A DNA stretch of 36,590 bases from an uncultured Anaerotignum sp. (GTDB taxonomy: Bacteria > Bacillota > Clostridia > Lachnospirales > Anaerotignaceae): assembly GCA_944381385.1 (NCBI GenBank), contig CALWKZ010000010.1, forward strand, positions 1-36,590, given 5' to 3'. The translations under genes were made by a program, and so were the position numbers. A model generated the notes under the pieces. The model had not been told where the DNA came from and made no database searches. It saw only the letters and a list, made by a program, of their open reading frames with translations. Shown piece by piece: positions 462-2,667 of the stretch (position 1 is the stretch's first letter; each line of letters begins with the position of its first letter).

Positions 462-1012
462 CTTTTTTTATGCAAAAAAGACTAGCCGGGAAGAGTTGCG
501 CTGAAAGCTACAGGACACAGGTTCGAGCCCTGTAACTTCCACTTTTTTTATGTAAAAAAGCCTAGCTGGGAAGAGTTGCGCTAAAAGCTACAGGACACAG
601 GGGTGAGCCCTGTAACTTCCACTTTTTTTATGTAAAAAAGCCTAGCTGGGAAGAGTTACGCTAGAAGCTACAGGACACAGGTTGGAGCCCTGTAACTTCC
701 ACTTTTTTTATGCAAAAAAGACTAACAGGGAAGAGTTGCGCTAGAAGCTACTGGACACAGGAGTGAGCCCAGTCACTTCTTTTTTATGCAAAAAAGACTA
801 ACAGGGAAGAGTTGTGCTAAAAGCTGCAGGACACAGGTTGGAGTCTAGTAACTTCCATTTTTTTATGCAAAAAAGACTAACAGGGAAGGGTTGCGCTAAA
901 AGCTGCAGGACACAGGTTGGAACCCTGTCACTTCTTTTTTTATGCAAAAAAGACTAACAGGGAAGAGTTGCGCTAGAAGCTGCAGGACACAGGAGTGAGC
1001 CCAGTCACTTCT
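462..1012 (+). repeat. Tandem array of seven tRNA-Val-derived units (76-80 bp)
   Basis: Seven head-to-tail units lie at about 462-541, 542-621, 622-701, 702-780, 781-857, 858-935 and 936-1012; a stub of an eighth unit follows. Each has a T-run/ATGC/A-run inverted repeat (CTTTTTTTATGCAAAAAAG), then a D-loop-like TAGCTGGGAAGAG, a shortened middle, and a copy of the tRNA-Val T-arm plus 3' acceptor strand. In unit 1 the last 26 bases are identical to bases 436-461 of tRNA-Val. Units 2-7 diverge in the T-loop and from unit 4 on in the acceptor strand. The 5' acceptor strand is missing, so no unit can make a normal tRNA. The 3' AACTTCC of one unit can pair imperfectly with GGGAAGAGTT of the next, around the T/A-run stem. 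Confidence 0.9.
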
Positions 1013-1130
1013 TTTATGTGAAAAAGAAAAGTAGGGGAGATCGATCAGAAAGAATATTATTTATGATAAACCAACAGAACGCTATCAAATATTTTCATAC
1101 GGAGAAGAAGCATTTTTTCATAATAAAAAA

Positions 1131-1179: not shown

Positions 1180-2451
1180 TTAGAAAAGCTGTCTGCCTTC
1201 TACAAATTTATGGCACACCTCACCGTCTTCTGACAGATAGATGGCACGTTCCAGACGTTCTTCTATGGTGTATTCGCCGATATTGTCATAACGGCTGTCG
1301 TCCAGCACAAAAGCATCCAGCAGATAGCCCTTTTCAAAAGAGCCGACCTTGCCGAAAAATGCGCCGCCGCCTTTGGTGGCCAGATAGAATACCTCCGCGA
1401 CCGTCAAAGGCGCAAGCCGGTCATCTACTAGGCGCCATCTTAATTTGGAGACGCGGATGGCCTCTGCCATAGCGAAGAACAGAGAGCATCTGGTGCCGCC
1501 GGCGATATCGCTGCCCAGGCCCATAGGGATGCCTTCCTCCAGATAGCGTCTGACGGGGGCAATGCCGGAGGCCAGATTGGTATTGGATTCCGGGCAATGG
1601 GCGATGAATACGCCGCGTTCCTTCATAAGGGCGATTTCCTCATCGCCGCTCAGGACGCAGTGGGCCATGATGGTAGGACAGTTTTCGCCGCCAAAAAGGC
1701 CGAAGCTGTCGTAGGCGTCACCGTAGTTTTTGGAATGGGGGAACAGCTCCCGCACCCAGGCTACCTCGCCTCTGTTTTCGGACAGGTGGGACTGTACCGG
1801 AAGCGCATATTTTTTCTGGATCTCTCCCAGCTTTTCCAGCAGAGCGTCCGTACAGGAGGGCAGGAATCTGGGCGTTAAAATAGGCGTGACATGGGGATAT
1901 TTTTCCCGTACTTCTTCGATCCAGCGAATGGTCTCCTCCGCGGATTCCTCTGTGCCTTCCCGCAGGATATCGGGGCTGTGCCGGTCCATATTGACCTTGC
2001 CGACCATGGCGGCCAATCCCGCTTCCTCCAGCAGCTCCATGAGGATTTCCGTAGATGCCCTGTGGATCGTACCGAAAATACAGCCTCTGGTATTAGGGCC
2101 CTTCCGCATCTCTTCCACAAACCGGGCATAGTTCTTTCTGGCGTGATCCGGGTCGGCGTATTTTGCTTCCTGGGGGAAGGTATGGGTATCCAGCCACTCC
2201 AGCAGTTCCAGATCCATGCCCAGCGCGCGGAAACGGTACTGTGGCGCATGGACGTGCAGATCTGTAAAGCCGGGCAGAATCAGCTTTCCGGTATAGTCCA
2301 GAAGGGGATACGCCTGGTATTCCTCCGGCAGTGTTTGAAATACACCGGCGGAAACGCCGTCTTTGCAGACCAAATAACCGTCTTTCCAGCTTTCCATATG
2401 CTGCGGGTCCCTGCTCCAGCAGAGATCCCCTTTTAATACAAAGTTTTTCAT
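1180..2451 (-). CDS. guaD: Guanine deaminase
   Basis: 423 aa amidohydrolase that converts guanine to xanthine plus ammonia in the cytosol, the entry step of guanine catabolism. Visible signatures are the metal-binding PGFTDLHVHAPQ (H66, H68), the family-typical WLDTHTFPQEAKY segment, SHLSENRGE, MAHCV with a metal-ligand His, and GSDIAGG with the metal-ligand Asp. The length fits the guanine deaminase branch rather than dihydroorotase or cytosine deaminase. The ATG is preceded by AAGGAGG at 7-nt spacing. It is a single-gene unit ending at the bidirectional terminator at 1131. A purine-riboswitch-like leader lies upstream, which supports the substrate assignment independently. Confidence 0.92.
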   Translation of the reverse strand: MKNFVLKGDLCWSRDPQHMESWKDGYLVCKDGVSAGVFQTLPEEYQAYPLLDYTGKLILPGFTDLHVHAPQYRFRALGMDLELLEWLDTHTFPQEAKYADPDHARKNYARFVEEMRKGPNTRGCIFGTIHRASTEILMELLEEAGLAAMVGKVNMDRHSPDILREGTEESAEETIRWIEEVREKYPHVTPILTPRFLPSCTDALLEKLGEIQKKYALPVQSHLSENRGEVAWVRELFPHSKNYGDAYDSFGLFGGENCPTIMAHCVLSGDEEIALMKERGVFIAHCPESNTNLASGIAPVRRYLEEGIPMGLGSDIAGGTRCSLFFAMAEAIRVSKLRWRLVDDRLAPLTVAEVFYLATKGGGAFFGKVGSFEKGYLLDAFVLDDSRYDNIGEYTIEERLERAIYLSEDGEVCHKFVEGRQLF

Positions 2452-2473: not shown

Positions 2474-2630
2474 AAAAAAATACCGTTACTCCCGTTCGTC
2501 AAAGTTTTCGCCCGGAAATGTCCGGAACACACCGCAAAAGAGCAGCAAATGCACTGCGGCGGAAAACTTATAGACGGTTGTCTGCGGTAACCGGTAGAAA
2601 CATCCAACCAAGGATAGATTGATATAAGTT
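2474..2630 (-). promoter_or_regulatory. Purine-riboswitch-family leader of guaD, variant core, with a predicted ON-switch platform
   Basis: Read on the minus strand, P1 is AACTTATA (2630-2623) with TATAAGTT, 8 bp and perfect. J2/3 contains the invariant TTTCTACC, P3 is CGGTT/AACCG with an L3 CCGCAGA, and L2 TTGGTT carries GG that can pair with CC of L3. The aptamer is 66 nt (2630-2565), close to the size of the xpt guanine aptamer. J3/1 reads TCTAT: C at the specificity position (guanine-like), but U where the xpt aptamer has A73. P2 is short (ATCC/GGAT) and J1/2 is enlarged. The P1 3' strand (CGTC-TAT-AAGTTTTC) can instead pair with GAAAACTT-T-GACG (2509-2497). Outside that, ACCGGTTAC (2595-2587) can pair with GTAACGGT (2489-2482), just before a U7 run (2480-2474). 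Ligand-free RNA would thus terminate and ligand-bound RNA would read through. Confidence 0.8.
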
Positions 2631-2637
2631 TCGATTT

Positions 2638-2667
2638 ATTATAGCACAGAGAAAACAGAAAAGACAA
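2638..2667 (-). promoter_or_regulatory. Promoter of the guaD riboswitch transcript
   Basis: On the minus strand the -35 TTGTCT (2667-2662), an 18-bp spacer and the -10 TATAAT (2643-2638, with an upstream TG) fit a sigma-A promoter. Transcription would start just ahead of the aptamer P1 strand, as expected for a riboswitch leader. Confidence 0.75.

Follow-up and report, generated by a model that had tools for sequence, protein, structure and literature searches.

A guanine-I type riboswitch probably turns on a guanine deaminase gene by transcription antitermination in the window, by which we mean the whole 36,590-nt stretch of DNA analysed here; we put the probability of this reading at roughly 0.8. 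The model is based on aptamer homology, pocket conservation, gene association and mutually exclusive pairings. The purine riboswitch aptamer lies on the minus strand between a sigma-A-type promoter and the guanine deaminase ORF, and we infer guanine binding, terminator function and the direction of the switch for this leader as follows. When guanine is scarce, the RNA would refold so that the 3′ strand of P1 and C74 pair with 2497–2509, and UACC(G)GUUAC of J2/3-P3 would pair with GUAACGGUA before U7, so that RNA polymerase would stop ahead of the gene. When guanine is present, it would be held between U22, U51, U47 and C74, with P1 and P3 locked; the terminator could then not close and guanine deaminase would be made. 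The enzyme would in turn convert guanine to xanthine, which would amount to substrate induction.

Read 5′ to 3′ on the minus strand, the locus comprises the promoter, the aptamer (2631–2564), a spacer of ∼75 nt, the terminator 3′ arm, U7, a Shine-Dalgarno sequence (AAGGAGG) and the gene, with its start codon at 2451 (Table 1). The promoter search returned one site where 0.2 were expected, and TGTGCTATAATAAATCGAAACT of the promoter region is kept in L002, the closest relative. Since the predicted transcription start lies near 2631, P1 would form the 5′ end of the RNA.

Table 1. Features of the riboswitch locus (window coordinates)
Feature	Position	Strand	Remarks
Sigma-A-type promoter TTGTCT-18-TATAAT, TG before second hexamer	2638..2667	(-)	10/12 matches
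Purine (guanine-type) riboswitch aptamer, three-stem junction	2564..2631	(-)	RF00167 36.5 bits; group model R1 (covariance model from 25 aptamers, the window's copy among the training sequences) 76.7 bits
P1 5′ strand AAACUUAUA, pairs with 2572-2564	2623..2631	(-)	Compensatory U-A to G-C change, window versus L002
J1/2 UCA; U22 kept, A23 changed to C	2620..2622	(-)	Only copy of 70 with C23
P2 AUCUAU/UUGGAU and L2 CCUUGG; kissing GG at 2609-2608, A33 changed to C	2602..2619	(-)	
J2/3 GUUUCUAC; U47, U49, C50, U51, A52, C53 all consensus	2594..2601	(-)	
P3 CGGUU/AACCG and L3 ACCGCAGAC; kissing CC at 2587-2586, A65 changed to G	2575..2593	(-)	
J3/1: U73, then specificity base C74 at 2573	2573..2574	(-)	C74 in 70/70
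P1 3′ strand UAUAAGUUU, common to aptamer P1 and terminator helix	2564..2572	(-)	
Predicted terminator 5′ arm UACC(G)GUUAC, within aptamer (J2/3-P3-L3)	2587..2596	(-)	Same logic kept in relatives
Alternative partner of J3/1 and P1 3′ strand (GAAAACUU with AAGUUUUC; GACG with CGUC, pairing C74)	2497..2509	(-)	
Predicted terminator 3′ arm GUAACGGUA	2481..2489	(-)	Identical in L002
U7 tract of terminator	2474..2480	(-)	Identical in L002
Guanine deaminase gene, 423 aa, intact, monocistronic within window	1180..2451	(-)	TIGR02967 E 6e-105

The protein encoded by ORF 1180–2451(-) resembles guanine deaminases most closely. Its TIGR02967 match (351.5 bits) falls below the curated cut-off of 375.4 and stands far above that of any other deaminase family. 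It scores 250 bits against human guanine deaminase (2uz9) versus 70 bits against 8-oxoguanine deaminase (7ww2), and its best solved relatives are the Clostridium (2i9u), human and yeast guanine deaminases. We rejected an assignment as 8-oxoguanine deaminase on the strength of the TIGR02967 match and of 7ww2 trailing far behind the guanine deaminases. The window and L002 enzymes are 91% identical at a dS of ∼1.1, with a dN/dS of 0.055, which indicates that the gene is kept under purifying selection. The host genome also encodes a molybdopterin hydroxylase of the xanthine dehydrogenase superfamily, so breakdown beyond guanine deaminase is possible. Among the viral contigs searched for guanine deaminase, none was found carrying the enzyme.

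The original prediction placed the leader in the purine riboswitch family, leaving its strand unspecified, and named a covariance search with RF00167 as a check. Run here, the search returns a match spanning 2551–2647(-) with 36.5 bits and an E-value of 2e-4. The gathering score, 37, is half a bit higher, so a default Rfam scan misses this riboswitch; others just below the threshold likewise escape routine annotation. RF00167 has no other match in the host genome, which is represented by an assembly of 81% completeness with Anaerotignum as its closest relatives. The P1, J2/3, P3 and GG/CC loop motifs were located correctly at the outset, with nine pairs in P1 and five in P3, and by pocket and architecture the sequence is that of a guanine-I type member.

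Comparison with relatives refines this anatomy. We aligned 70 copies with a fit to the structure (94.7% of cells paired) and used a free alignment of 25 copies as comparison. The fitted alignment, which holds 57 distinct sequences, has changes on both sides in 18 of 20 pairs, a count that none of 500 shuffles reached; the free alignment has them in 13 of 20, above all shuffles. Eleven positions never vary among the 70 aptamers (U22, G46, U47, U49, C50, U51, A52, C53, C74, U75 and A76), and the GG of the kissing loops is likewise present in every copy. The CC partner is present in the window, where A33C and A65G depart from the loop consensus. Compared with most other purine aptamers of the order, P2 and P3 form hairpins that are ∼3 nt shorter, here and throughout the guanine deaminase group. 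The short P2 and enlarged J1/2 first described for the window arose from a misread fold: J1/2 has the usual three nucleotides of the aligned relatives, and P2, with its U-G wobble and terminal U-U, looks as it does in them. Nor is U73 a special mark, as had been thought. Position 73 varies freely (A in 30 copies, U in 22, C in 18), and U is common in the group.

What the first reading overlooked are the A23C, A33C and A65G changes of the window copy. C23 and G65 are unique among the 70 aptamers, and C33 marks one of two copies without A33. In the structures of xpt and add, positions 23, 33 and 65 help to build the A23-G46-C53 triple and the quadruples between the loops, and make no direct contact with the ligand. 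Because the changes fall at tertiary-contact rather than ligand-contact bases, a weakened fold is more probable than a changed ligand, and the three changes may weaken this copy. Taken further, they could mean that the window copy is decaying and binds its ligand poorly while its relatives retain a working riboswitch. The RF00167 score, the lowest of any copy in its genus (36.5 versus 39.9–53.7 bits), would fit such decay. However, the compensatory pair change in P1 relative to L002, and the identity of the −10 box, terminator arm and U7 with those of L002 despite a gene dS of ∼1.1, speak for a maintained element, and we consider decay unlikely. A different conjecture is that the short-armed guanine deaminase aptamers form a separate guanine subclass with a relaxed position 73 and much better discrimination between guanine and xanthine than guanine-I, in which A23C of the window would be a further step in the pocket; we regard this as a long shot.

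The case for antitermination begins with the pairings, which lie where the original prediction put them: the P1 3′ strand and J3/1 (2562–2576) can pair with 2497–2509, and UACC(G)GUUAC (2596–2587) with 2489–2481, directly before U7 (2480–2474). Because the terminator uses J2/3-P3 and the P1 3′ strand, aptamer and terminator are mutually exclusive. Folded freely up to U7, the leader reaches −45.5 kcal/mol with UACC(G)GUUAC/GUAACGGUA and AAGUUUUC/GAAAACUU paired and C74 bound to G2500. Enforcing the aptamer gives −38.7 kcal/mol, a cost of 6.8 kcal/mol, and the stem at U7 is lost. By this model, nanomolar guanine binding could cover the gap. In partial transcripts of ∼78 to 134 nt, an aptamer-like P1/P3 fold is best at most lengths; it thus precedes synthesis of the competitor and would leave a time window for the ligand. 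The predicted terminator is long, branched and bulged, and its fold energy is only modestly better than that of shuffles (z = −1.45), so the case for a terminator rests on comparison with relatives. We sampled 500 structures per leader, scoring as a terminator any stem of at least 6 pairs. In the window, the terminator fraction falls from 0.35 in the free leader to 0.00 with the aptamer enforced. The computed folds support the ON logic that had been predicted from the exclusive pairings, and the catabolic gene to which that logic was thought suited is indeed present downstream, as guanine deaminase.

Most relatives are predicted to switch in the same direction. Downstream of 64 guanine deaminase aptamers, we found a U6 run in 46 leaders; the 18 that lack one include some that may act otherwise. 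In 41 of the 46, the arm that leads into the U run finds its partner inside the aptamer, versus 109 of 460 (24%) mononucleotide-shuffled spacers, and the usual pairing joins CUACCGU of P3/L3 to ACGGUAG. The mean terminator fraction over these leaders is 0.85 free versus 0.12 with the aptamer enforced. Forty behave as ON-like and one, L002, runs in the opposite direction. Other purine RNAs put through the same sampling, but with only P1 enforced (n = 26), include 8 ON-like, 2 OFF-like and 10 terminating in both states.

The exception comes from the closest relative. In L002 (2826–2990), a 7-pair local terminator, CCGUUGC/GUAACGG, is predicted that is compatible with P1; the terminator fraction there is 0.61 free and 0.95 bound, against the ON logic at that locus. 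If a local terminator likewise formed beside the bound aptamer of the window, the leader would be an OFF switch or constitutive, and ligand would not raise expression. With P1 enforced, the window does permit a weak 3-pair stem adjoining U7. Yet none of its 500 samples with the aptamer enforced contains a terminator of at least 6 pairs, and the 40 ON-like relatives point the other way. A substrate that shuts off its own catabolic gene would also make little sense, and we judge an OFF or constitutive leader quite improbable.

The association between aptamer and gene extends well beyond the window. In 80 related guanine deaminase loci of clostridial genomes, mostly from Lachnospiraceae and Oscillospiraceae and, as nearest relatives, not independent, our covariance model places an aptamer no more than 600 nt upstream of 60 genes and none at the other 20, in line with the first identification of guanine deaminase as the riboswitch target. 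Of 196 genomes sampled evenly across the order, 41 encode the enzyme, and a comparison of coordinates places an RF00167 match directly upstream in 7 of these. The link is therefore frequent in part of the family and not universal.

Several related loci have features of their own. Two tandem purine aptamers lie upstream of guanine deaminase in L006 (2682–2928) and L007 (2655–2909), and in both the first is followed by its own U-run terminator; tandem guanine riboswitches are rare, with seven doublets described (PMC9481103). In L021 (4390–4480), xdhA, which encodes a xanthine dehydrogenase subunit and directly follows guanine deaminase, has a second such aptamer in front of it. An aptamer of the same family in L058 (1183–1271) is upstream of a membrane protein gene, with guanine deaminase as the next gene; the protein resembles an NCS2-type purine permease and has no NCBIfam match at 1e-10. 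In L083 (1508–1596) and L085 (1508–1595), an ORF resembling FAD-dependent oxidoreductases is preceded by a short-armed purine aptamer for which an ON fold is predicted, and the L085 protein likewise lacks an NCBIfam match at 1e-10. Within the genus of the window, L003, L004, L005 and L093 have one extra J3/1 base (CG before C74), which recalls guanine-II, but without its J2/3 insertion.

Riboswitches built on the same scaffold offer several points of comparison. The adenine riboswitch pbuE of B. subtilis turns ON by disrupting a terminator built from aptamer sequence; it has U74, and we rejected the adenine class for the window because C74 stands at 2573. A 2023 PNAS study of the 8-oxoguanine riboswitch is said to describe a same-scaffold ON switch before a purine-base deaminase gene. 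In that class, which we compare through a review's description, the ligand-recognition bases are mutated (PMC11625349), whereas those of the window are consensus and its enzyme is a guanine deaminase. The window shares with guanine-I (RF00167, e.g., B. subtilis xpt) the three-stem junction, U22/U47/U51/C74 and the GG/CC kissing loops. Unlike guanine-I, it has P2 and P3 hairpins ∼3 nt shorter, belongs to a group in which position 73 is not fixed as A, and is predicted to be an ON rather than an OFF switch, placed before guanine deaminase and not before biosynthesis, salvage or uptake genes. The guanine-II riboswitches of Paenibacillus have guanine-type pocket bases and predicted ON logic as well, but they have a one-nucleotide insertion in J2/3 and an insertion in J3/1 and mostly precede phosphoribosyltransferase genes (PMC9295807); we rejected this class because J2/3 and the UC of J3/1 have no insertions in the window. 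The 2′-dG-III and xanthine-II variants are likewise ON switches before purine breakdown genes, but they use other pocket bases for their ligands, 2′-deoxyguanosine or guanosine in the former and xanthine, with U51G, in the latter (PMC9295807). Xanthine-II was rejected since U51 is kept and the J2/3 and J3/1 insertions are absent.

These comparisons bear on the suggestion in the original prediction of a variant aptamer whose ligand could be any of several purines. A changed specificity, for xanthine, 8-oxoguanine or 2′-deoxyguanosine, might be read from A23C, A33C and A65G, which are unusual and lie close to the junction and the kissing loops, and such ligands are bound by natural variants (PMC9295807; the 8-oxoguanine class is cited in PMC11625349), but it is very unlikely: every ligand-contacting position is as in guanine-I, with U22, U47, U51 and C74 intact and invariant in the group; the J2/3 and J3/1 changes of the xanthine and 2′-deoxyguanosine classes, including U51G and the insertions of xanthine-II, are absent; the enzyme resembles guanine deaminase more than it does 8-oxoguanine deaminase; and xanthine, as the product of the enzyme, would be a poor inducer.

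The guanine-responsive ON switch that we favour is not new in its logic, which is already known in the purine riboswitch family and has been published for guanine-II, xanthine-II and 2′-dG-III variants (PMC9295807); the predicted logic of the window agrees with these variants and with the gene. We found no report tying a guanine or purine riboswitch to guanine deaminase in the open-access literature searched, and Rfam-based gene lists may include the link. The nearest connection is that of NMT1/xanthine-I with guanine deaminase-like genes, for which its authors infer repression. If true, our model would describe RNA-based substrate induction of purine breakdown in gut Clostridia, with the classic guanine aptamer turned from an OFF into an ON switch to serve a degradative enzyme. 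It also touches on the need for such a sensor to tell a substrate, guanine, apart from the product of its own enzyme, xanthine.

Elsewhere in the window, tRNA-Val (389–462) is followed by seven tandem copies of ∼80 nt (462–1020(+)), each with a decayed 3′ part of the tRNA (ACACAGGTTCGAGCCCTGTAACTTCCA) and a T-rich linker.
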